Assembly (NCBI GenBank): GCA_021292165.1
Contig: CM037879.1
Span: 158,007,278-158,071,277 of the forward strand
Direction of reading: 5' to 3'
DNA: 64,000 bases
From: Shinisaurus crocodilurus
Lineage: Eukaryota > Chordata > Lepidosauria > Squamata > Shinisauridae
Part shown: positions 2,561-64,000 of the stretch, piece by piece
Layout of the letters: each line of letters begins with the position of its first letter
Position numbering within the stretch: position 1 is the stretch's first letter
Notes under the pieces: generated by a model
What the model was told of the DNA's origin: nothing
Seen by the model: only the letters and a program-made list of their open reading frames with translations
Database searches by the model: none
Made by a program: the position numbers and the translations under genes

Positions 2561-3136
2561 GGGAGAAATCCGAGATTAGCAATACAGCCCTAAGCATGTT
2601 TACTAAGAAATAAGGCCCTTTTTGTTCACTGAAGCTTACTGTTGGAGGATATGGAAAGGAGTCAGTCCTATACTGGTTAGTTTTCCCCCTTATGCACAGC
2701 CTGGTTATTGAAACTGGTTATCACCACGTGGGTTGCTGAACCCTGCTAAAAGGCTCTTAAAAGGAAAGGATTGTCCAAAGGTTTACAACCGATAAAGACA
2801 TTTGTTAGTTTTACTTACAATTCATTTATTCATATATGCAGGATGCATATAGGTAGATTAGAGTCTTTGGTGTTAAGAGTCCGCTTCATTGGAGATCACT
2901 GGCAGGAAGCCAACTCGGACTGTGCGTCCATCAGGTTGGAGAGGTAGAGAGGGGGGGGGGAGGGAGAGAGAGAGGCCGGAAGTAGGGAGGAGGGGTTACA
3001 AAACATGCACCCTGGGGATTGTTCAATTAACCCTTTCCTCCCACTGTAACTAGTGGTTACATTAGCTCGTTGATTTAAGCAGGCAATATTACAATTTCCA
3101 TCACTTACTTCCAGGGAACTGTGCATAGCAAAGCAC

Positions 3137-3212
3137 ACTTACTTTGGAATAAGCCCCACTGAACTCAATAGGGCTTACTTCTGATTAAACATGCTTAGGA
3201 TTGCACTGAAGA
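3137..3212. repeat. Palindromic 'AAGTAAG-CCCA-TGAA' repeat copy
   Basis: A short dispersed palindrome with core AATAAGCCCCACTGAA and flank CTTAGGATTGCA. Other copies in this window are at 43,090-43,172, 58,598-58,677, 35,577-35,727 and, degraded, 31,700-31,770. All end in a '-ATAGGATTGCAGCC'-like edge. Probably a non-autonomous DNA element remnant; the superfamily cannot be assigned from this copy. Confidence 0.5.
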
Positions 3213-3219
3213 AGAAAGT

Positions 3220-4630
3220 CTTGGAGTAAGTCATACATCAGATATAGCAGTAATCTGTTAGCCCTCTAATCAGTGTTCCAGTCAGTCCACGGAGAAGCCT
3301 CCTGCAATGTCTCCCCCCCCCCCCATGTACAAGCCTTAAATGTCACAAGCAGAATGGTCTTTCTTTTGATTACTCTCCCCACAGCCCAATAGAATTTTCT
3401 GCCAGCCTGCTACACAGTTTCTATTTGCCTTCTCTTGCTGCTCTGTGTATGTTACCATTTCCCAAGTATTCCCTCACCTCTCTTATATTGGTAGCTATTT
3501 TTACAAGAAAGTTTCATTACTCTTAATCATTTGAGCTGCCTCTCCTTACTGTTTCCTTGTTAAAACAGAGATTTAAATAGGAGCAAGAGTTATTCCAGGG
3601 AAAGAAAAAGAAAGTGGAGGGGGAAGGGGAGGCCCACAGAGCTAGGCCCAAACATGCATACATTACAGAATAGCCTGGAATGTGAAATTCCATATTGGAT
3701 CATAATATTATATATTCTAATCTACAGTGCTGGCATAATAAAAGCTGCTTCACTTTGACTACCATATGTCAAATGTGTTTTTCGGGGCGGTGGGGGGAAA
3801 CAACCCCAGGGCTTTGGAGGAATGCTACCTATTTGTAAGAGATGTTGTTGCATTCCCCCCCCCCCAAAGGATTTATCAATCCATTCTGTGTACGAACTCT
3901 AGGCTGCCATCCTCACGCCTGTGTTTCAATGTGCCCCAGAGTTGTCGACATGATATTTTCGTTTTAAGCAGGAAAAGCTGCTCAGGGGATTGAGGGAAAG
4001 GTTTATTGCCTGAGAGATTGCATGTGTGGATAAGACTGCCACTCATTCATACTCTTTATAGGGATGAAGAGCATCTTACCATGCTTCCCCCCCCCCTCCT
4101 GATGAGATTATCCAGGAAGCAGAAGAAAACAGATGACCACCTCACCAGATGGCTAGACTGTTGGCTACCGCTTGGCAAATGGTCATCTGAATTCACTCAG
4201 TGTGACCCGTTCTTATCCTGTGGTCACAATAACCCTTCCAGGGATAGCCATTCAGCAACCCATGGCCCAGATAAGCAATTTCATCTGGCCTTCAGTGGTG
4301 GTGCTGTCAATTTCAAAATATTGCCCTTGATTATGCATATAAGGAAAACAAAGTTATTTTCAAAACTTGGCAGAGAGCAATCCCCCTCTAGAATGTTCCA
4401 TCTCTCTTTGGGTTTTGTATGTATTACCCTAATACATGTGGCCCACATATTGGGAGATTTTGGCAATTTCTCCCCTTTCAGCTCCTCTTCAGCCCCTTGC
4501 TTCTGGTACCTTCACATCTACCACCATCTCCTTCTCCTACTCCCATCTAGGTACCTTCTGCCATGTCCCTCCCGGGACATGCAACAACTTTCCACCTGAA
4601 CTCCTCAAGGCTCCTCCTCCTCCTTCCTTT
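3220..4630. other. No recognised gene; contains one 197-codon open frame
   Basis: Mostly unrecognised sequence with poly-C tracts near 3,858 and 4,087. The longest frame (4,006-4,599, +) is 197 codons but shows no domain, signal peptide or repeat-protein pattern I recognise, and includes low-complexity Leu/Ser/Pro stretches read from pyrimidine-rich DNA. I treat it as chance. Confidence 0.4.
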
Positions 4631-4634
4631 GGTC

Positions 4635-4797
4635 TCATAGAATCGTAGCATTGGAAGGGGCCTATGAGGCTATCGAGTCCAACCCCCTGCTCAGTGCAGG
4701 AGAACAGATGTGGTCAGCCCAGGCAGTCACCCATCCAAACACTGACCCGGCTCATACCTGCTTAGCTTCAGCACGTGGCCTGCATTATGTGCCGGAG
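4635..4797 (-). mobile_element. 5S rRNA-derived SINE with CR1-like 3' tail (diverged copy)
   Basis: Read on the minus strand, a 5S-rRNA-like head (GAAGCTAAGCAGGT, then TTTGGATGGGTGACTG) is followed by the linker CCTGCACTGAGCAGGGGG and a CR1-like 3' end (GTTGGACTCGATAGCC, then CCTTCCAATGCTACGATTC). The head matches the box A and box C parts of the internal Pol III promoter of 5S rRNA. Related copies lie at 19.4, 51.7 and 55.3 kb. This is the most divergent of the four and hence perhaps the oldest or another subfamily. Confidence 0.7.
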
Positions 4798-5289
4798 ATC
4801 TACTCTCCACACTCCATTTTCTTAAAGCTTCTTAGCTCTCACTGTGGATACTATCCCACTGCCATCCAGCTCTCCCATCCTTGCTATTCACCGTCAATTC
4901 CTCACCTCCTCATCCCTACCTTCCCCCGTAAGCAGGGATGTCGGAGAAATCTGCAAAGGATTCGAAGGAGTTCAGACTTCTATCAATCTGACCAGTGGGT
5001 TCCACAGTGGACTGGCTTTTTCTGAGTCCTGCAGTCAGTCATGCTTCCTTGGCACGAGTGTGCATTACTGCTAATGTGAATTCACATGGGTTGAAAGGAA
5101 TTCCGGTTTTAAAAACCCAGTTCTGTCACTGGTGGCTGACAGAATGAAAGGAGCCGGACAACCCATGAAACACGGATGGAATGGATTTAACAAAATCCGT
5201 ACATTCCTGCCTGTCAGTCACAGATCAGCCTTCTGGGCAGGGGCGACATCATTCTTCTGTTCTGCATCATGTCTGTCTAGCATGTGTTT

Positions 5290-5509
5290 TTTAAAACAGG
5301 TCTAGATCTTATTGAAATTGTTTTAGTTGTTCAAACTGTTTTAAGTTTTGTATAACAGAATTTCTTATGCTGTATTTTATTGTATTTGTATTTTATTATT
5401 ATCTATTCTATTATTTGTACCTGTGTTATGAATTGCTGTGAACTGCCCAGAGAGCTTCGGTTATTGGACAGTATAGACATGAAATAAATAAATAAATAAA
5501 TAAATAAAT
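5290..5509 (+). mobile_element. L2-type LINE 3' end
   Basis: An A/T-rich 3' UTR leads into TGTGAACTGCCCAGAGAGC, TTCGGTTATTGGACAGTAT and a terminal AAAT repeat. The same terminal motif ends the coding L2 copy at 11.5 kb (minus) and fragments at 48.06 and 56.8 kb, so it is a 5'-truncated LINE insertion. No coding portion remains. Confidence 0.7.
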
Positions 5510-5734
5510 CTCTCAGTGATGAGAAAAAGACCCATCCCTATCTAAGGATCAATTCGAGCGAGGCTGCCAGAGTTTGCCTGCCTCATGACTGACTGAGACC
5601 TTGCTTGGGCAATGTGGAGGGAGATGGGGAGTAGAGGCCCCCAAAAACCTCCAACTGAGTCCAGTGCACAGTGTTGCCACTTGACTGGGGGGGGGAGCCC
5701 CCCATGGCCTGGGAAAGCCCCCCAAATGGCCTTG

Positions 5735-8399: not shown

Positions 8400-11300
8400 T
8401 CAAATAGGAGACCACTTTGCTTCTATGGTGAGCCCTGACATATGCCAAAATTACTTTGGAATGAATGTGCAATAAACTATTTAAAACACAAGTGAAAAGA
8501 ACAATGGGGTGGTCTAACAAAAGACCAAAAATAAATGTTCCAATGGGTGAAGTAGCATTTTATCTTCACAAGTATGAATTGCAACAAATTTTAACCGTAG
8601 CAATCTTCAGAAGATAGACAGAACCAAGGCTTGCAACTACCGTATGTCAAAAAGCAGAGGCTACACAAACAGTTGCTAGTGAAAGCCATCTAGACTAATG
8701 TATGGAATATAATAGAATGGAACAGAAAAATGCTTTGACATCTTGGTGTACCGGGTGCTCATTCCTGTTCACTAAGAGGACATCTCTTTCCCAGGATCTG
8801 AGTCCTGATACTCAGGAATGATGGACAATGTGGTGACTGAGAATCAAGGTTTCTGAAGTCATGTGCAGCCTTTTGTGGAAAGCGAGCCAAGGCAGCAGAA
8901 ATGTGGCCTTTATTTATTAATTGATAACAACTTGCTATTTTATTGCTCTCCCAGAACGAAGTTATGCTTTTGCTGTTCAAGTTGCTTAATGGAACAGATG
9001 TAAGGAATTAGTTGACCTGAAATTTGTAGTGTAAGGTTGAGCAGGCAACCTACCTCCAACCAACACCATCTTTGTGACCCTCTGTAGGCTTCTTCCAAGT
9101 CCTTTGTGCGCAGCCCAAGATTCCATCAATTATGACTTGCAGCTACTTTGTTATGAATCACACCCACTGTCAGCTGAGAGAGCTCGTGCTTTGATGACAT
9201 CGCGCCATGCACATTTAATGATGCATGCGGTGGAGAATTTAGTGAGGGATGCAGGCTTGCTCAGATGGAAGTTTCATTCACCCTGATCAAGTGAGACTTA
9301 TTTATAAGCACAAAGGGGCTTCCACGTGCAGGCCTGCCTTACAAGACTCCTGTGGGGAAAGAGGGGAGGGGAGAGATGTGTTAATGTGCACTTAGCTACC
9401 TGGGTGGAGCACGTCATGCCTGCAACAGACGACTGACACCACCAGCACAGAGCACTAATGACTGCTTATCAGGGAGAGAAAGGAGGAAATGAACACCAAC
9501 ACTCTCAAGCTGTCCTGTTTCCCCCCCTCCCCTTTCAGGTGGCTAACTCTGTCGGAGCTGATGGCACTGATCACATCTTTGTGATCACAGGAAAGGGAGG
9601 TACCGTACCTATGAGCGTGTTGCCTTCTGCTACATTTCTGGTTTCCTGGATCACTCCAATCCAGATCTATTAAAACAAATGGGAGATTTGTCATTGTTTT
9701 CAATGGGATGTGGATTGTAGAACTGGAAATCAATTCAATTCACTACTGAACAAGCGCACAAGGCATTACAGCCAGGGGAAGCCATCCTCTGCACATAGAT
9801 GAACAGTATGTGTTTTTTTTAAATTGGAATCCACTTTGTGAGAGTTTTTAACCCTGAAAAAACAGGGCTATACATCTATCAAATAAATAAATAAACAATG
9901 TAAGACCCATGTGACTTGCATACGAGGAAAATGGCTTGCAGTCATGATCTGGGTCTGAAGTGTGTGTCACAACCACCCAATGAATTGATGTAAGAATCAA
10001 AGCTTAGCTTCTGTTCTTAAATGTGATGATCTGGGTTAGTGCGGTGGAGAGAGAATATTTTGTTCACCCACTTAGTTCCTTTCTGCCAAAAGGCTGTGGG
10101 TTGATGCCTGGCCGGTGGTAAGAATCCGGATTCAAGTTTCCATTTTCCGTTGTGCCAGGTGATGAATCTGTTTTGCCAGTACAGGCCTTCAAAAGATCCT
10201 GCAGTTGGAGGAGAGGCGCGGAGAAGTCTTGCATCCAGCCTGCCATATGTTGGCAACGGTGATGTTCCTCTGGTGGGAAGAAGATTATGTGGTAGCTTCT
10301 CCAAGTTTAAACAGAAGCTTCCTCATGAGAATGCTTGGGGATTAAAAGAGAACGACAACATCTGTAGCAATCACTGCAGAACGTTAAGGCCAGTTAGCTT
10401 TTACAAGCGTGATCCATTTGTCCATTGAAGTCGGTAGAAATACCCACCTCATTACTGACTCCACTGCACTCTGGCTCAGGCCCAATCAGATGTCAGCTAA
10501 AGGGGGGAAAGCCTGTGGATATATTACTGGCAACAGCTAGTTGCACAAAGATGGAAAGACCCAATAGTTCTCAATGAAAGGGAACAGGACAGAACAGAAA
10601 GATATGGCACATAGTCTATTGATGGAGAGACTATTCCAATAGGCCAGAATGCAGAACTAGAGGCCAAAGTGAGCAACTTTATGAAAGAGTGGTAGTCATT
10701 CATTACCTTTATAGAAACAAGTCACAAAGATTAACAGACATGATGTTTCATGCACACCATTTTCATTTCTAAAAAGACAGGGAATGGAGAACTTATACAG
10801 CATAAATGGGGTGGGGGAAATGTACAATGAACAGAAGATAGAATGGAGTTAGGTTTGTGTACATTTAAAACTCAGCACCGTACAAGTTGTAGCAATTAGG
10901 AATGAAGTAATGTGTTTCTGAATGATTTACCTCGCGGACTGGGCATCGTAGTGCAATGCTCTATTTCTTACTTAAAATTAAAAAATGAAACAGAGAGTTT
11001 AAAATAAGAAAAGAAAAAGCAGTGATAATTTTTATCCACTCCGACTTTGGTGCTTTTGAAATCTGGCACTAAGTACTGAAAGGGGCTGCCTCTGTCTACA
11101 CATGGGGCAACAGAAAAAAAAAATGCCATCCTTTATAATCTTGGTGTAAGTGCCAAGACTTTAATACTGGCAGATGTTAAGGATGCTTCTAGACAAAGCT
11201 GTTATTGTGCAATCTTCCCGCCTCATTCACAGAATTTTTGGGGGCGTGTGTGTGTTTCCAGGAGACATTCTGTTTGTAACCTTTCTGTATTTGATTACTG

Positions 11301-11460
11301 CTTCGTTTAGCTTTTCTTTCTTATCACAGAAAATCTGTTAAGGAGGGAAGGAAGGAATACCTGCACAGTTTCTTTTATTGGGAGTGTTAGGAGCCATCTG
11401 TCTGAAAAGCACCCTTAGAATTAGAAACCTGAGATTACATGAGAAAGGCAAAGGCACACT
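8400..11460. other. No recognised gene; one possible LINE/SINE tail
   Basis: Frames under about 100 codons only. Positions 9,830-9,897 (CACTTTGTGAGAG ... GGGCTATACATCTATCAAAT and an AAAT run) look like a degraded LINE or SINE 3' tail. A perfect short palindrome TGATCACATCTTTGTGATCA sits near 9,568. Nothing else is recognised. Confidence 0.4.
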
Positions 11461-11511
11461 ATATGTCCCCAGATTAAGGTGACCATTTTTTTCAAATTTT
11501 AAACCAGGACA

Positions 11512-13341
11512 TTTATTTATTTATTTATTTATTTTCTATACTGCCCCACAGCCGAAGCTCTCTGGGCGGTTCACAACAGTTTGTACATAAAAACAACAAT
11601 AAAAACATACAAAAAAAGATTAAAAACCAAATAGCAGAGTTTAAAATACAACCCAAAAGTTAATAAAACTAAGTCTACAGGTGACAATTCCCCCCCCCCC
11701 CCGCGCTGGTGCTATTTTGAACTCTTAACTATTGATGCCTTGGCATAGAGGGAAGTCTTAACCTGGCACTGAAAAGATAGTAAGGTTGGAGCCAGGAGGG
11801 TCTCAGTGGGGAGCTTATTCCATAATTGGGGGGCTACCACTGAGAAGGCCCTCCTCCTTGTTGCTACCAACCAAGCCTCTCTTGGAGGTGGCAGTTGGAG
11901 GAGGGCCCCAGATGTTGAGTGTAGTGTCCAGGTAGATTGCGGTTGGGAGAGACGAGACGTTCCGTCAGGTATTGTGGTCCTAAGCTGTGTAGGGCTTTAT
12001 TATATGTTAGAACCAGCACCTTGAATTCAGCTCGGAAGCATATTGGCAGCCAGTGCAACCGGTGTAATGTGCAACCGGTGTAATGTGCTCGGACCTTCTG
12101 GTCCCCGTAATAAGCCTGGCTGCCGCATTTTGCACAAGCTGCAGCTTCCGAACAGTCTTCAAAGGCAGCCCCACGTAGAGTGCATTGCAGTAGTCTAGAG
12201 ATCACCAGAGCGTAGATTACTGAGACCAGGCTATCCCTGTCCAGATAGGGGCATAGCTGGGACACCAGTCGAAGATGGTAGAAGGCACTCCTTGCCACTG
12301 AGGCCACTTGAGCCTCAAGTGACAAAGATGGCTCCAGGAGCACCCCCAAGCTACGAACCTTCTCCTTCAAGGGGAGTGCAACCCCATCCAGAACAGGTTG
12401 AACACTCTCCATCCGGTCAAAGGAACCACCCACTAACAGCATCTCAGTCTTGTATGGATTGAGCCTCAGTTTGTTAGCCCTCATCCAGTCCATTGTCGTA
12501 GCCAGGCAGGCACCGGTTCAGCACATCCACAGCCTCACCTGCTGAAGATGAAAGTGTGCCCTGCTACATGTGTTGGGTCAATGACATGTGTGGACAGTCC
12601 CATGGTTGTCATGGAGTCCATGAATTCTTGAGCCACAGCAGACAAGGTGCCCTCAGCATGGATGTTAACACCCCCCAGGACCAACAGCCTGGGGGACCTC
12701 AGCATCGCCAGCGAGACCACCTCCGTCAGCTCAGTCAGGGAGTCTGTTGAGCAGTGGGGTGGGCGGTACACCAACAGAATCCCTAATCTGTCCCGCTGGC
12801 CCAACAAAAGGTGAAAACACTCCAGACCAGTAGTCAGATGGACAGGGAGCCTGGAGAGAGAGATAGAATTCCTATAGACCATGGCAACCCCCCCCCTCCC
12901 CGGCCCTCAGGTCTACCCTGATGCTGCACCAAGTACCCCGGTGGGCAAAGCTGGGAGAGACTAACTCCTCCCTGTTCTCCCACCCAGGTCTTGGTAATGC
13001 ATGCCAGATCAGCCGCCTCATCCACTATTAAATCGTGGATGAGGGAGGTTTTATTTTGCATCAATCTGGCATTTAGAAGCAGCATCCAGAGACCTGAGGG
13101 CAGGCTGATAGGACAACCACCAAACCTGCGGGTGTGAGGAGGACCGGAACAAGGCACAGCCATTAAGTGTTTGGGCTGTGTTCCCCTTACCTGGCTAGTC
13201 CTCCTCCCAATGCCATATCTCCCTCTACCCATCACTACACTAATTGGGGCCCCCACAGAAGCCCCCACTTGGCCCCATGACTCCCCTCCAAGGCACATGT
13301 TCAGGCCCTAGACAGGGAAAAACAATCCCCCTGTCAAGGTT
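11512..13341 (-). pseudogene. L2 LINE with endonuclease remnant, RT core deleted
   Basis: On the minus strand an AP-endonuclease-like frame (about 13,298-12,540) contains LLNARLMQNKTSLIHDL, ACITKTW and LGGVNIHAEGTL, fragments typical of the L2/CR1 endonuclease. It then jumps directly to MDWMRANKLRLNPYKTEMLL and LGVLLEPSLSLEAQV, which normally follow the RT catalytic YxDD block, so the palm domain is missing. The C-terminal part ([26 protein letters not shown]) is recognisable with frameshifts. The 3' tail GTGAACCGCCCAGAGAGC and TTTA repeat lie at 11,512-11,575. The element sits only 37 bp inside the left end of the hAT-like element, so it inserted after that element did. It cannot encode active RT. 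Confidence 0.85.
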
Positions 13342-13449
13342 CCGCTACTGCAGGGACCCCTCGACCTGCCTTTGGAAGATATCTGCCTCTTCTCAAAGCC
13401 TCTCCCTTTCCAGGAGATCAAATCCTTTGCCTGCTTCCAGTAGCATGGG

Positions 13450-13972
13450 TGTAGGCTTTAGACGTGGTGAATAAGTCACTCCAGACTCTCAGGGTACACA
13501 ACAACACTTTACTTATAATATTAGGGTAATTACTTAATAGAGTGGTTATAATTCAAAAGCAAGTATGATAAAATAAAACAAACAACTAATACAAGGTTCT
13601 CTAGCTTATCTTCAGACTACCTCTCTCCTCTGCAGTCAGTCTCTCTCTGCAGTCAGTCTCTCTCTCCTGTCCCTGTTCTCTCTCCTAGCTGACCACACCC
13701 CACACATATATAGCCCTCCCAGGAGTGGAAGGTTATAATCAGGTGACCTTGATCAGGAGACTAATTCTTAACTTCTATTGGCTACTAAAACTCTCAAACT
13801 CCCCCTCCCATCCTGGAGTGTTTGGGCCTTCAGGCTTCAACTAATCTAGGGAAGTGTTTGGGCCTTCAACAAACTTAAGCCTGTGTAGGCCTCAATCCTT
13901 CACACACACCCACCAAGGGCACTGAGCAGGCTTCAACCTAACTCAAGCCTGGGTAGGCCTCAATCCTTTACA
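13450..13972 (-). mobile_element. Probable solo LTR
   Basis: Read on the minus strand the segment starts TGTAAAGGATTGAGG and ends AGCCTACA, i.e. TG...CA. It has a TATA-like CTATATATG near 13,710 and, about 200 bp further on, an A/T-rich stretch with an AGTAAA polyadenylation-like signal before GTGTTGTTGTGT. It contains two direct copies of a GGCCTCAATCCTT(T/C)ACA unit near its promoter-distal end. No internal retroviral or Gypsy genes are present. I could not find an exact target duplication (GTAG occurs close to both edges), so the boundaries are approximate. Confidence 0.45.
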
Positions 13973-14029
13973 GTAGTCCAACAAGATCTGGAGGGTCATA
14001 GGTTCCCCACACACTTGATCTAGCTCATT

Positions 14030-14172
14030 GTTGCCGACACACTGACTGGCAGTGGCTCTCCAGGGGTTTACACAGGAGTCTTTCCCAGTCTCACCTGGAG
14101 ATACCAGGGATGAAACCCAGGACCTTTTGCACGCAAGATGGGTGCTCTGCCATTGAGCAATGGCCCCTCCCT
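14030..14172 (-). mobile_element. tRNA-derived SINE (second family), partial
   Basis: The minus strand shows an A-box-like region (GCTCAATGGCAGAGCACC), a B-box-like GGGTTTCATCCC and then GGTATCTCCAGGTGAGACTG, as in the longer copy at 33,000-33,217. Truncated at its 3' end. Confidence 0.7.
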
Positions 14173-14564
14173 TCTGATACAGAAGCCATGGTGTAGTGGA
14201 GTGGGAACACTGGGTCCCAGAGCTCTGGCACTTTTTTCAGCTGATCCTAATAAATTAGCTAGTATGCTATGGACTGATTTTCTTTGTGGGTATCTATCTA
14301 TAATGGATCAACACAGCTGCCTGCATTTTGGGTTGTCCTTGGGGTATGGTCATTGGGGCTGTAATGATGAGCGCCTGCACTTCAAAATTTAGTACTGAAC
14401 TACCATTAAGTAGTACTGTACTAATAAGGAGGAAGTTACCACTGGCTACACACACAGCGCCTTTCCCTTGCCACTCTGTAACCCCACAGCTAGGCCTGCA
14501 CACAGCCAGAGTGGATCATGGGGACAATGGCCTAAAGACCATGGTGGGGACTGATGGTTATCCG

Positions 14565-14863
14565 CAATGACTGGGTTCAGGCAACATGATAACCCACACT
14601 CAGGGGTTGACTATGGGTTGATTGTGGGTTGTTGCTGAAACGTGGGTTATCGTGTTGTCTGAACCCACCTGCACTAACAAGCCATGGCTTCTTAACCACA
14701 ACCAACCCACAAAGAGAACCCATGGTTGTTATTGGGCTGCGAACTGTGGGTTGTTCACCATGGTTTCTTATCTCAGCTGGGTTCAGACGACAACCCACGG
14801 TTCAACGACAACCCTTACTCAGCCCTGAGTGTGGGTTATCATGTTGTCTGAACCTAGTCAGTG
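14565..14863. mobile_element. Four-motif palindromic MITE, copy 2
   Basis: The ends CAATGACTGGGTTCAGG and, inverted, CACTGACTAGGTTCAGAC enclose four alternating GTTCAGAC(A/G)ACA motifs, with CACTAACAAGCCATGG in the spacer. Each half is a roughly 100-bp hairpin. It is embedded in the large hAT-like element and is about as diverged as copies 1 and 3. Confidence 0.75.
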
Positions 14864-14973
14864 TATTAATTCAGAAGGAAAGAGCACTCAGTGGCTTGCA
14901 AAGGGATCTGATAGGGGTTTGTACTGGAAAGTGACTCCCACTGGCTTCAATAGGGCTAACTAACTCCTTACTA

Positions 14974-15095
14974 CAGCCTTCTCCAACCTAGTGTCCTCCA
15001 GATCTGTGGGTACAACTCCCAGCATCCCCAGCCAGCTGGCTGGTTGGGGATGCTGGGAGTTGTTGTCCAACACATCCAGAGGTTGAGAACGGCTG
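14974..15095. mobile_element. Palindromic hAT-type MITE ('TCTCCAACCT' family)
   Basis: The left end CAGCCTTCTCCAACCTAG and the right end GGTTGAGAACGGCTG are imperfect inverted repeats around ACAACTCCCAGCATCCCC / GGGGATGCTGGGAGTTG. The outer 8-bp flanks match poorly. Family members with good duplications are at 38,860, 41,926 and 57,760. Confidence 0.65.
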
Positions 15096-15109
15096 CGCTA
15101 GTGACAAGC

Positions 15110-15652
15110 GTGTCTTAGCTTTGCCTGCAGTCCGATGTGCCCTGAGCTCGCCTGCTCATCCGGCCGCCTGCCACACACTGCGCCTCCTCCTTAGTGCGAG
15201 CTGCACGGCTTTGCTCTCCCCGTCCAGTCTTCTTAGTGCTTTAAGAAAAGGCTGATCCTCCTAAGCCCGCCCCTAACTTCCACGGCCCGCCTCCTTCAGG
15301 TCCTGTCCTAATTGGCTGACCAGGGCATGAATATGTATGCCCTGACCTGTGTGAATGAGCCGCTGTCCTCTCCCTCGCCGCCATGCAGAGAGGCTCAGTG
15401 TGCATGTGGGTCTCCTCTCAGCTGCCTCCGCCATCGCCACCACCGGCAGACACCCATCTCGCGTCCTGGCGTGATCCTGCCACAGAGTGTGCAGGGGGTC
15501 TGTGTCCCTGCGGTGCCTGCCTGGGTCTTTATGCTCCCACCCGGCGTGCTGCTGCCCGGCCTGGCCCGTCTCCGCGCTGCCTCTTGCCACCCACCCATGT
15601 GTCAGCTCCGCCATCTCGCCTGCTTGCCCGGGGTTCGGCACCCACCAGAGAA
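15110..15652 (+). promoter_or_regulatory. GC-rich promoter-like leader upstream of the SNED1-like fragment
   Basis: Markedly G+C- and CpG-richer than the surroundings. It has a GC-box-like CCCGCCCC at 15,266-15,273, an inverted CCAAT box (ATTGGCT) at 15,311-15,317, and a continuous frame from 15,383 into the signal-peptide codons. This composition is what the CpG-island promoter and 5' UTR of a housekeeping or matrix gene look like. I infer that it was copied together with the exon fragment. Whether it is transcribed is unknown. Confidence 0.45.
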
Positions 15653-15882
15653 ATGCAGGGCCTGGCTGGCTGGCTGGTGCTGCTGGCGCTCAGCAGCTGG
15701 CTCTGGCTGCGGGCGAAGGGCGCTGTGCCCCTGTCTGATTTCTACCACTTCAGGCTTGCGCAGGGGGATGCTACCCCGCAGCAAGACAAGTTAACAATGG
15801 CTTTGGGCTCTGGCCCATCGCCATGAAGTTCCCTTTCTTCGGTTGGCTCACTCTAGACTACGTCAGTAATCGCCCTGTCTAA
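15653..15882 (+). pseudogene. SNED1-like first-exon fragment, frameshifted, inside a hAT-like element
   Basis: An ATG at 15,653 opens a hydrophobic leader (MQGLAGWLVLLALSSWLW) followed by GAVPLSDFYHFRLAQGDA and TPQQDK. From memory this resembles the mature N terminus of SNED1, a secreted matrix protein whose first domain is a nidogen (NIDO) domain. The frame is broken near 15,790. A frame offset by two bases continues as GLWPIAMKFPFFGWL and LDYVSN, matching the next part of the same protein, then stops at 15,880. Similarity ends at TAC|GTCAGT, which could be an old exon-intron boundary; that would mean the copy came from DNA rather than mRNA. It lacks the rest of the NIDO domain and all Sushi, EGF and fibronectin repeats, so it is not a functional gene. 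Other NIDO proteins (nidogens, alpha-tectorin) fit less well. Confidence 0.65.
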
Positions 15883-16039
15883 GGGCTAATGAGAGCACGG
15901 GAGCAGCTCCACATGGGGCTTGGCTCACCCCCCCTCGAGGTTTCTTAACGCAGAGAGTCTTATGAGAAATAAACAAGCCGCGTTCAGGTTTTTTTTACAA
16001 AAAATTAAAAACTATATATAGTTTACTAAAAATGGGACA

Positions 16040-16130
16040 AAATTGACATTTATATTAAAAAGAAGGGACAGTCAGGAAATATGAAAAAAACGGGATTGTC
16101 CCTTTTAAAACGGTATGTATGGTCAGCCTA
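16040..16130. mobile_element. Orphan hAT-like right end related to the large element
   Basis: The sequence ending at 16,130 reads, inverted, TAGGCTGACCATACATACCG followed by TTTTAAAAGGGACAATCCCG. It resembles the ends of the enclosing element (TAAGGTGACCATATGTACTGG ... GGGACATTGTCC). No matching left end or 8-bp repeat of the flank GTCCTGGC was found upstream. It is either a nested relative that lost its left end, or an internal rearrangement. It lies just downstream of the SNED1-like fragment and may mark the edge of the captured segment. Confidence 0.5.
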
Positions 16131-16680
16131 GTCCTGGCGAAGCAGCGAGGTGCGCCATGAAAACAGCGGAGCGAAAAGCTCGAGTAACCAAGAGAGCGTG
16201 GAGCTCTGACGGCCAGTGTCACGGTCCGAAGATGCCAGATCACTGGTGCCTGTCTTGTGCTGCGGAGGGCCTTTTATAGTCCGAAGCTAACACCAAATTG
16301 GCCGATTTTGGCCGGCTCTGTGTGATGATGTCATCATCGAGTTCCCACAGTCGGGCTGTATGTACTGTGCGGGAGTATTATCGAAGAGTCGCCGCGGCCA
16401 CAATATAGTGAGAGTGCATGTGCTGAATGCCGAGTATTGCCGAGATCCAACGATGAGAACCGTCGTGTAAAATAAAACTAAAACTAGGATAAATTAATAA
16501 AATTGATTTAGGCTGGTTTATCAAGGATTGATTTGATGTACCAATCTTTTGATAAATTAATAATTTTTGATCTTGTAGTCCTAAACTGTACTGGTTACAT
16601 CTCACGACTAACCAGGACAATGTCCCAAAAACCAGTACTGTACTGGTAAAACCAGTACATATGGTCACCTTACCCCAGAT

Positions 16681-17860
16681 AGTCTAAGACCACTAGCATA
16701 ACATTTTCCAGGTGTTTCTTTTCCCAGCACCAGGGAGAAACATTTTATCTCCAAGTCAACAAACCAGTTCTAGCAGGTTTTATCTCTATCAGGAGCGAAT
16801 GGATCTTAATTGCCCGTTCAATACCAAGCCACCCCAAAATATTTTGTATTACAACAGGGATAACTCATAACAGTATATTGTTACTGGGAAATCCCCCCCC
16901 CCCTGCAATACTGTGGGGATTGCAGCTAAACTCAGAGGGAATAAGCCTTATTAAGGAAATCTGGGGGGGCAGATGATGTCATAATCCCTGCGAATCAAAT
17001 ATCCTGGCACTTCAGTCCTGTGAGCCTTGGTTCCACTACACTACTGCTGAGAAAGTTCACTACAAATAGCAGGATCACACTTGGATTTGCATTTTGAGAG
17101 TGATATAGCTGCTCTGAAGCAACTTCAAACTTGGGCGGGCATGAAAAAATAATCTGCTCAGCTCAAATATGAAAATCATGATGGCAAAGCTCAGTAGCAG
17201 ATAGATCTTTTCAATGAGGCCTAAGAAATTAGCTGAGTTCATCCCTATCGATCACGTCCAATGAACTTTGGCGTCGTACAAAACAGTATTCAGTAACTAT
17301 TCCCATTACTAGGCCAGGCTGGGGCAGAAGCAGGATCACACACAAAAATCCCCACCATGCAGTCATGGAATTAATTTTTTTTTTTTTTAAGGCAGTGCAA
17401 TCATGCCCTGTTCAGCTAAGTTATGTGAGCCCAAGTGGCTTCACCCTGGCCTGGTTAATGGGTGTGCATTGTCTGCTTCTCTGTAAGGTTGGAGACAGAC
17501 AATAGTGGGTTTGTGTTTGTTTGTTTTTAGAGCAGTTTGAGAAATGCACAATTTCCCAAGAAGTACACATCTATATCTTTCGTCCCACAGTGGTATCTGG
17601 CCAACTATACAAACACTTGCAAAACCTGTCCACCAAAGGCCATAGTGGAATGAGCAGCATTTCCTCTTTAAAATCATCTCCAATCTCTGGACCCTGCCCC
17701 TCCACACAGTGTATCTACAGCCTAAACTGAAGGAAGCGCCATTGGGAGGATACGCAGGCCCCAAAGATGGATCTCTGTTCCCCAAATGTTGAAAATGCTC
17801 ACCATTGCGCTTCCCATCATCAGTCCTGAAAACAGCTCCCCCCCTTCCACTGCCAACCGC
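16681..17860. other. No recognised gene or repeat
   Basis: Short chance frames only; the longest is 159 codons on the minus strand at 17,441-17,920 and overlaps a MITE. Poly-C and poly-T runs near 16,895 and 17,376. Confidence 0.4.
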
Positions 17861-17866
17861 TTGCAG

Positions 17867-18011
17867 CAGGACTGGGGAATGTTTGGCCTTCCAGATGTTG
17901 CTACATTCAGTACATTGCAACTCCCATCAGCCCTAGCCAGCATAGCCAATGGTGAGGAATGACGGGTGTTAGTCCAACATCATCTGGAGGGCAACACGCT
18001 TCCCATTCCTG
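17867..18011. mobile_element. Palindromic hAT-type MITE ('TCTCCAACCT' relatives)
   Basis: CAGGACTGGGGAATGTTTGG at the left and, inverted, CAGGAATGGGAAGCGTG at the right flank CAACTCCCATCAGCCCTAGC. The internal halves CCAGATGTTGCTACATT and CAACATCATCTGGAGGG are inverted. No matching 8-bp flanks remain. Confidence 0.6.
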
Positions 18012-18069
18012 CCTAAGAATAAATGCTCCTCTCACTGGGTTAAACCCAACACCACCCTAGTGGGAGTCC

Positions 18070-18260
18070 ACTCGTGATGGGATGTTTTTCCTCTCTTCTC
18101 ACCCCTGCAGCCCTCCATGCTGCCCTAAAATCTGCTCTGGAGGGTTTCCCAGTCATCTGGTGGAGAATTTGTGAGGACACCCGGGGGGCTGTGGAGGAAG
18201 TGGGGGAAGGAAGACTCCCCCCCCCATTCTGCTGATAGATCTGCTTCCATCAGCAGAACG
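18070..18260. repeat. GC-rich palindromic repeat, relative of 500-665
   Basis: Contains CTGCAGCCCTCCATGCTG, TGCTCTGGAGGGTTTCCC, GGGGGGCTGTGGAGGAAG and the edge CATCAGCAGAACG that also borders the segment near 500. The two segments appear to be diverged copies of the same unidentified element. Confidence 0.4.
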
Positions 18261-18573
18261 GCAGCTTTGGATCCCACCCATTGGCTCCTCTGATTGAAAC
18301 CAATTTGACTGCTTTTCACAGTCTGGAGAGGGAGCTGCCTTCTAAAAAGTCCTATAATCACCTCAAATTGAAATGAACACGCAGCAAGGCAGCAGTGCAA
18401 ACAAGCCCACAGGAGAAGCAAGCGGTCAGGCGTGCGCAGGGAAAAGCGTTCTCCTGAAAGGCGGCTCCTGTGGATCACGAAGAGCAAAAAGGTCATCTGG
18501 CCTCCCAGTTGAACATACACACCCCTTGCGTGTTCAGACCAAGCACAGAGAAACTGAAAGCATATGGAAGGAT

Positions 18574-18612
18574 CTGTGTGTGTGTGTGTGTGTGTGTGTG
18601 TGCACGCGCGTA
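18574..18612. repeat. (TG)n microsatellite with CG-alternating end
   Basis: About 14 uninterrupted TG dinucleotides followed by GCACGCGCGTACACAC. Alternating purine-pyrimidine sequence of this type can adopt Z-DNA. Confidence 0.9.
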
Positions 18613-19372
18613 CACACTTGCTTTTCCATTTTGAAAGATTGAAAATGCTGATAGGTTACTCGTGAAGGAACAGAATGTTTTCACACCTGTGCCAACGGAG
18701 TACCAGTCCAAGATGTTTCATAATTGTGCTTATTTATGGAATCAGAAACAGGTGCCTAAGTCAGGTGGGAAAATAAGAAGAAGGAGGCTGAGGTCATCGT
18801 AAGCACTACCAGAGGAGGGGAGTAAAAGATGCTCTTGTCAAATCTGGTGGGAAGGGGAGGTTAGGCGGAAATTATAAAAGGAGACTAGAGACTGTAAAGA
18901 GTAACGGGAGTCAGCACAGGGAGAGCTTCAGTTTTTCCCTTCTAAAAGCCAGGGGTAAAGGAAACAAACTATACACCAGAAAAACACAGACCGCACAGCC
19001 TTGCTTGCTTGAAGCGACTCACTCTAGAAATAACTGGGGGGGGGGGGGAAACACAGCCGGCGTTGACCTCCCCAAACATGGATTAGTGCCACAAGAACCT
19101 ATGCAAAAGCAAACACCCACCTGGACGTCAGTGAAATGATGGAGGCGCTGTCTCCGGCTCTCTGGACATATTAAGTGAAACATTGTTTGATGGTGGGCAG
19201 GAGGAAGCACTTAAGAGGTGGCTTGGAACCCGGAGTGTCCTTTACAAGGGGCAAGAAGAAGTCGCATGGGGGGGGGGATAAAAATAAACCAGAGGTCATG
19301 TAAATGCTGAGTAGTAGAGATGCCCTACCACAGCAGCGTTTAATTTCATCCATTCTCTGTAAGGCACCACCA

Positions 19373-62300: not shown

Positions 62301-64000
62301 TTGTTGGGGCCCCTTTCCTGAGAGAAGCTCCACTGCCAGCAGGAGGAGGGCGACTCCCCCAGGCCTGCCTGATTAGGACGCCTGCCACCTGGGCTTGCTT
62401 GACGCTCCGCAGGCCTTTATCTGCCGGCCCGGAGCACGGCAGCGATCGCCCCGAAGGGGGACAACCCCAAAAGGGGATGGCCACTTTGGGGGGAGCCACT
62501 TTGGGGGGAGCCACAAGGGCAAGGGCCACCCCCTAACTCTGCTATTTGTTGCTCGGTGCCCTTGGTGGAGGGGGGATTGTTTTTTCCCTGTCTAGGGCCT
62601 GATCATGTGCCTTGGAGGGGAGTCATGGGGCCAAGTGGGGGGTTCTGTGCGGGCCCCAATTAGTGTAGTGACGGGTAGAGAGAGATATGGCATTGGGAGG
62701 AGGACTAGCAAGGTAAGGGGAACACGGCCCAGACACTTAATGGCTGTGCCGTGTTCTGGTCCTCCTCGCACCCGCAGGTTTGGTGGTTGCCCTATCAGCC
62801 TGCCCTCGGGTCTCTGGATGCTGCTTCTAAATGCCAGATTGGTCCAAAATAAAACCTCCCTCATCCACGATTTAATAGTGGATGAGGCGGCTGATCTGGC
62901 ATGTATTACCGAGACCTGGGTGGGATAATAGGGAGGAGTCTGTTTCTCCCAGCTTTGCCCACCAGGGTACTTGGTGCAGCATCAGGGTAGACCTGAGGGC
63001 CGGGGAGGGGGGATTGCCATGGTCTATAGGAATTCTATCTTTCTCTCCAGGCTCCCCGTCCGTCTGACTACTGGTCTGAGTGTTTGCACCTTGTGTTGGG
63101 CCAGCGGGACAGATTAGGGATTCTGTTGGTGTACCGCCCACTCCACTGCTCAACAGACTCCCTGACTGAGCTGACGGAGGTGGTCTCGCTGGCGATGCTG
63201 AGGTCCCCTAGGCTGTTGGTCTTTGGGGATGTTAACATCCATGCTGAGGGCACCTTGTCTGGTGTGGCTCAGGAATTCATGGACTCCATGACAACCATGG
63301 GACTGTCCCAACATGTCATCGGCCCAACACATGTAGCAGGGCACACGCTAGACCTGGTTTTTTCAGCCGAGCATGGAGATGGTGATCTGAAGGTGGGGGA
63401 CTTTGAATCGGTCCCCTTGTCATGGTCAGATCACTACCTGCTGAGATTTAGGCTAACGGCAGCTTTCCCCCTCTGCAAGGGTGGTCCGCCCCCGGAGGCT
63501 GATGGATCCGGATGGTTTCCAGAGGGGCCTTGGGGGGTTTCCGGCTGATATGGCTGATATAAGGTTCGTAGCTTGGGGGTGCTCCTGGAGGGAGCCATCT
63601 TTGTCACTTGAGGCTCAAGTGGTCTCAGTGGCAAGGAGTGCCTTCTACCAGCTTCGGCTGGTGGCCCAGCTACACCCCTATCTGGACAGGGATAGCCTGA
63701 TCTAGGTAATCTACACTCTAGTAATCTCTAAACTAGACTGCTGCAATGCACTCTACGTGGGGCTGCCTTTGAAGACTGTTCGGAAGCTGCAGCTTGTGCA
63801 AAATGCGGCAGCCAGGCTTATTGTGGGGACCGGAAGGTCCGAGCACATTACACCGGTTCTGGCCCGTTTGCACTGGCTGCCAATATGCTTCCGAGCCAAA
63901 TTCAAGGTGCTGGTTCTAACCTATAAAGCCCTACACGGCTTAGGACCACAATACCTGATGGAACGTCTCTCCCAACCGCAATCTACCCGGACACTACGCT
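62301..64000 (+). pseudogene. L2 LINE with endonuclease, RT core deleted, truncated by window end
   Basis: A G+C-rich leader (62,301-62,600) with tandem CACTTTGGGGGGAGC units precedes an AP-endonuclease region: LLNARLVQNKTSLIHDLIV, LACITETWVG, then frameshifts, LLVYRPLHCSTDSLTEL, VFGDVNIHAEGTL and SWSDHYLLRF. At about 63,560 it jumps to the post-catalytic segment (LEAQVVSVARSAFYQLRL), so the RT palm with YxDD is absent. The C-terminal part continues past 64,000. The deletion differs from that in the copy at 11.5-13.3 kb, so the two arose separately. Inactive. Confidence 0.88.

Follow-up and report, generated by a model that had tools for sequence, protein, structure and literature searches.

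A hAT-like Pack-TIR family carrying the promoter and first exon of SNED1 in the genome of Shinisaurus crocodilurus

In this study, which was based on a window of 64,000 nucleotides from the genome of Shinisaurus crocodilurus (C4:158007278-158071277; 2.19 Gb in 1490 contigs) and on a comparison with the rest of that genome, we found a transposon derivative at 11475-16672 that contains approximately 2 kb taken from the SNED1 locus of the host genome and whose copies lie at many sites between 8-bp duplications. Positions without a contig name are coordinates of the window, by which we mean the whole stretch that was analysed. The element in the window belongs, with high confidence, to a large family of non-autonomous, hAT-like Pack-TIR elements (TIR, terminal inverted repeat). 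A preliminary description, which had been made from the letters of the window alone, had proposed a hAT-like transposon with a captured host-gene fragment; its observation was confirmed, and its interpretation proved to be largely right and is supported by the results below.

Results

The host-gene sequence inside the element could be assigned to a parental copy, the SNED1 locus, and both intron and flanking DNA have been kept in it. The captured block at 13974-15955 (plus strand) is colinear with C3:54296498-54298723 and takes in about 1.1 kb upstream of the promoter together with its resident repeats, the CpG-rich promoter, exon 1, the splice donor and about 95 bp of intron 1. Because upstream flank, promoter, exon 1 and intron 1 are all colinear with the host locus, the capture occurred at the DNA level, as the preliminary description had supposed for the promoter and first exon; the alignment to the SNED1 locus of the same genome that it had suggested as a check of promoter-exon 1-intron 1 colinearity was passed. 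With host position 1 set at C3:54293400, positions 3585-4297 of the copy L061 aligned with host 3098-3788 at 91% and positions 4292-5594 with host 4030-5323 at 84%, both in order, and the host has about 240 bp extra within the aligned interval. From the promoter to intron 1, a consensus of 23 copies was identical to the host at 741 of 890 columns (56 gap columns). The captured stretch had been placed at 15.1-15.9 kb, which does match SNED1, but its true extent is longer.

The host exon 1 lies at C3:54298492, on the same strand as the NIDO exon at C3:54327830 and 29 kb upstream of it; the latter we assign to SNED1 because it resembles the human protein. Exon 1 was not present in the first 9.4 kb that were read upstream of SNED1 exon 2. 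In the window, the coding part of the captured exon occupies 15653-15861 (plus strand), beginning at the ATG at 15653 and stopping at about 15861, the boundary between exon 1 and intron 1. The SNED1-like coding sequence described earlier at 15.65-15.88 kb is thus SNED1 exon 1, but it ends just before the NIDO domain of Pfam: the consensus captured exon gave no Pfam match, and it is the next SNED1 exon that matches NIDO (E 6e-30). The signal peptide in the captured exon was judged by eye only. The CpG-rich, promoter-like leader was correctly recognised, as it aligns with the host SNED1 promoter, with a GC content of 0.62 and a CpG observed/expected ratio of 0.57 over 15090-15950. Its proximal part, 15239-15378 (plus strand), contains motifs that we presume to be a GC-box and inverted CCAAT motifs. 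The exon is followed by the start of intron 1 (15862-15955, plus strand), in which the donor reads GTCAGT, while that of the host is GTGAGT. The assembled host exon 1 (L070, C3:54296400-54300300) is not one frame from the ATG to the donor, as it shifts by one base after DFYPF; the donor and the later exons look intact despite this. The shift is perhaps a homopolymer sequencing error, or perhaps real.

A Pfam search of the genome gave 29 matches to NIDO exons, with all 33 candidates scored. Further NIDO genes form a group at C10:14775408-15248173, with one more at C9:6281115, and in these the exon starts at the same place as the NIDO exon of SNED1. As sources of the block they were rejected on the basis of exon 1 of the C9 gene and of two of the four C10 genes, which were 33-43% identical at the protein level and had no significant DNA match; exon 1 of the remaining two C10 genes was not located.

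The 12-bp perfect inverted ends and the exact 8-bp duplication that had been reported for the element were both found again. The left TIR, TAAGGTGACCAT, lies at 11475-11486 (plus strand) and its inverted counterpart at 16661-16672 (minus strand), and they are bracketed by exact copies of CCCCAGAT at 11467-11474 and 16673-16680. These two are the only exact matches to TAAGGTGACCAT in the window, where the number of matches with two mismatches allowed was no higher than chance; CCCCAGAT occurs five further times and is by itself not a rare word. Across the genome, the 12-mer was found 457 times in the forward and 469 times in the reverse orientation, compared to 125 and 131 for a control with the pattern reversed. 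Among the 100 12-mer places listed, 52 formed 26 inward-facing pairs with a spacing of 1.4-10.4 kb (hand count).

The suggestion that the genome be searched for further copies sharing the ends and the fragment led to a large number of them. A search with 15090-16131 returned 485 candidates, and each of the 40 places that were scored, the window included, matched at at least 90% (one of them was split, giving 41 rows); identity was 90-93% for the 39 other than the window. Moreover, a search with the consensus peptide returned 323 candidates, and all 150 that were scored matched at at least 84%. From these candidate counts and the excess of ends we estimate a copy number of 300-500. Three copies (L061, L062 and L063) are 6.2-6.8 kb long, while L065-L068 (4.4-4.8 kb) and L064 (1.4 kb) have the same structure with parts of its interior deleted. 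An autonomous class among the copies of 4.4-4.8 kb was considered and is ruled out for the four that were read, which are internally deleted forms of the same composite.

Nine complete copies were read (the window and L061-L068). TIRs are present at both ends, and several copies share the chimeric structure between distinct target-site duplications, which are exact and 8 bp long in eight of the nine and differ between copies. For L062, joining the flanks and retaining a single 8-mer gave a sequence that matches, through the junction and over as much as 132 bp, uninterrupted sequence of a long interspersed nuclear element (LINE) at 70-77% identity; ten of the 12 alignments are free of gaps and two have one gap. 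Most of the matching LINE sequences lie inside copies of the family, and that at 62783-62914 of the window does not. L062 accordingly has a paralogous empty site, and its insertion was precise. The joined flanks of the window's own copy gave no empty site in the genome sequence searched.

The comparison of copies over the captured block included 30 of them, and counts of 28 or 29 refer to those that cover the place in question. A 5-bp insertion at the end of exon 1, which creates a TAG stop, was present in 29 of 29 copies. The donor was GTCAGT in 27 of 29, with ATCAGT in one and a deletion in another, and GTGAGT in none; the ATG was kept in 26 of 28. Since the insertion and the stop are shared by all 29 of these copies, one capture preceded the spread, and all of the compared copies descend from it. 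A tree of 20 copies and the host was nearly star-like: the inner branches were short, the host branch was long, and two pairs of copies were well supported.

The remaining parts of the window copy are as follows. The left element end, 11475-11511 (plus strand), places about 37 bp ahead of the LINE tail, with the same junction in L061-L068 and L072-L075. A fragment of a non-long-terminal-repeat retrotransposon follows at 11512-13331 (minus strand, 3' tail at the left), in which a reverse transcriptase (RVT_1) was recognised in the copies L067 and L061; the same LINE family also occurs at about 62.6-64.0 kb of the window. Three changes are private to the window copy: it lacks approximately 1.47 kb at 12553 that L061 carries, it has a different sequence of about 595 bp at 13332-13926, and the frame of its exon 1, in which the GACTA insertion and TAG of the family lie, is broken. 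The stretch of 595 bp does not align to the full copies L061-L063, and L061 has about 220 bp of other sequence in its place; 13331-13649 aligns at 84% with a single locus, L025. Direct repeats of 68 bp occur at 13848-13983, in or near this stretch. Within the captured block, an inverted-repeat element at 14565-14863, which is resident upstream of the host SNED1, was captured along with it, and related copies lie elsewhere in the window at 45.2-45.5 kb.

To the right of the block, 15956-16130 (minus strand) consists of about 30 bp of filler and the putative end of a second hAT-like element, TAGGCTGACCAT in the minus-strand reading, which was recognised by its likeness to the outer ends. A complete nested insertion of this second element was considered and rejected, as no left end or partner was found in L061. 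The right element end, 16131-16672 (minus strand, about 540 bp), has a TATA-like box at 16271-16279 and an ATG at 16158. On the minus strand, its consensus contains TGACGTCA, the TATA-like box and the ATG ahead of the end of the second element, as well as a motif like the cAMP response element; the box, the ATG and this motif are probably a remnant of the promoter and start of a lost transposase. The TATA-like box and the ATG point inwards, facing the captured promoter, and a full copy thus holds two convergent promoter-like regions. A scan of 9000-19000 against Rfam at the gathering threshold and a tRNA scan of 11000-17000 gave nothing.

Discussion

Several observations weigh against the window element being a copy of a large, hAT-like Pack-TIR family. 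The copy number of 300-500 is an estimate from counts of candidates and ends, and 30 copies were compared over the block. One of the nine complete copies, L064, is without matching flanks. Among the copies, the promoter is conserved no better than the sequence around it (50 of 3158 sites, 1.6%), i.e., selection on it was not seen, which speaks against a kept function. No autonomous relative was found, as left ends without the LINE tail numbered six places, of which the four that were read were ordinary LINE-carrying copies. A transposase was likewise not found in the ten of the 21 open reading frames of at least 90 amino acids of L061 that were scanned with Pfam, two of which gave reverse transcriptase (one below the cut-off) and eight nothing; no transposase family was used as a query. 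Finally, the consensus differs from the host by more than the copies differ from the consensus, which time or another donor must explain.

This last point bears on the possibility that the capture took place in another species and that the family arrived by horizontal transfer, the SNED1 block being foreign. Outside CpG sites, the copies differ from the consensus at 1.5% (590 of 38,496) and the host at 7.5% (126 of 1675), and hAT elements are known to move horizontally between vertebrates. However, the gap is also explained by the time between capture and spread. If the rates were equal, the age of the capture would be roughly threefold that of the spread; a rate of about 1e-9 per site per year would place the capture about 45 and the spread about 15 million years ago, as an order of magnitude only. 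Moreover, the host and the consensus differ in just one of the first 139 columns of the proximal promoter (one of 127 non-CpG sites), and the resident repeats of the block match those of the host locus in place. A foreign origin is therefore improbable. We read the near-identity of the consensus and the host promoter as a sign of constraint on the host side.

Assignment of the element to a different superfamily that makes 8-bp duplications is similarly doubtful. It would be compatible with the missing transposase, for which ten of the open reading frames of L061 and the left ends were searched, and P elements likewise make duplications of this length. Short ends and 8-bp duplications nevertheless fit hAT elements, and a similar end lies inside the element. 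Because no transposase was found, membership in hAT rests on the length of the duplications, which was 8 bp in eight of nine complete copies, and on the short ends of 12 bp; the earlier assignment as hAT-like stands to this extent. The other two alternatives are refuted. Retrotransposon sequence inside the element might point to a processed SNED1 retrocopy caught between transposon ends, but the block contains about 1.1 kb upstream of the promoter and intron 1 after the donor in genomic order. Segmental duplication or a host repeat, which a few contigs that resemble duplicate haplotypes (e.g., C319/C3 and C1058/C10) could favour, is contradicted in the copies examined by the differing exact duplications and the empty site of L062.

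For the hAT-like Pack-TIR family, the filler DNA and the second hAT-like end at the right junction suggest that the SNED1 DNA was acquired by template switching or gap repair inside a transposon copy. The same process has been proposed for multicopy Pack-TIRs by Tan et al. (2021, PMC8277862). One founder spread with 8-bp duplications, presumably with a hAT transposase supplied in trans from elsewhere in the genome, for which the terminal regions may suffice. A useful protein is most likely not produced from the cargo, since the founder of the spread already carried the altered donor and, where exon 1 ends, the stop. What the family disperses is a proximal promoter of SNED1 that is almost intact and may, at some of the sites, initiate transcription.

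In plants, it is well established that cut-and-paste transposons capture parts of genes. Pack-MULEs and other plant Pack-TYPE elements resemble the SNED1 family in being non-autonomous and carrying gene fragments, whereas they differ in their hosts, and Pack-MULEs belong to another superfamily. Plant Pack-TYPE elements also favour GC-rich parts (PMC8277862). In animals, a survey of 100 genomes in the same paper revealed 370 Pack-TIRs, 208 of them hAT, with capture nearly always in a single copy; four were multicopy, to which the Ssk-FB4 family of the fly was added from population data. The multicopy elements share with the SNED1 family transposon ends, a 5' piece of a host gene and copy-specific target-site duplications, and Ssk-FB4 also has filler inserted at the junction. 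The hAT-N8_XT of the frog carries a piece of the CAPSL 5' untranslated region of 291 bp on three chromosomes; in the SNED1 family, the piece is about 2 kb long, includes promoter, exon 1 and donor, and is present in many more copies. Among open papers, the titles and abstract openings that concern SNED1 with transposition report no SNED1-carrying transposon.

Helitrons are rolling-circle elements without TIRs or target-site duplications, both of which the SNED1 family has. In the bat M. lucifugus, they amplified the promoters of 15 genes to 4,690 copies according to Grabundzija et al. (2016, PMC4778049), and the dispersal of promoters in a vertebrate by another class of transposon was thus already known. 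HelibatN3, with the NUBPL promoter, is alike in combining a captured promoter, a short coding start and a splice donor that were amplified in a vertebrate genome. Chimeric transcripts were demonstrated for HelibatN3 in that paper, whereas the SNED1 family is known from its sequence, with an altered donor and a stop before it. We consider it a speculative and rather unlikely option that the family is the hAT counterpart of HelibatN3, in which a single host promoter would be present in hundreds of working copies, some driving neighbouring genes or non-coding transcripts, and the stop and weak donor of the founder would have made it a gene trap harmless enough to spread.

Since it presents one promoter and first exon in numerous young copies, with an identifiable source and readable junctions, the family is suited to studying how captures form, and it enables one to ask why one capture spread and whether dispersed promoters alter gene expression. 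For an animal, it appears to be an unusually large case of a cut-and-paste element capturing a gene fragment, which in kind would belong with the multicopy animal Pack-TIRs and in copy number would stand nearer to the Helitrons of bats.

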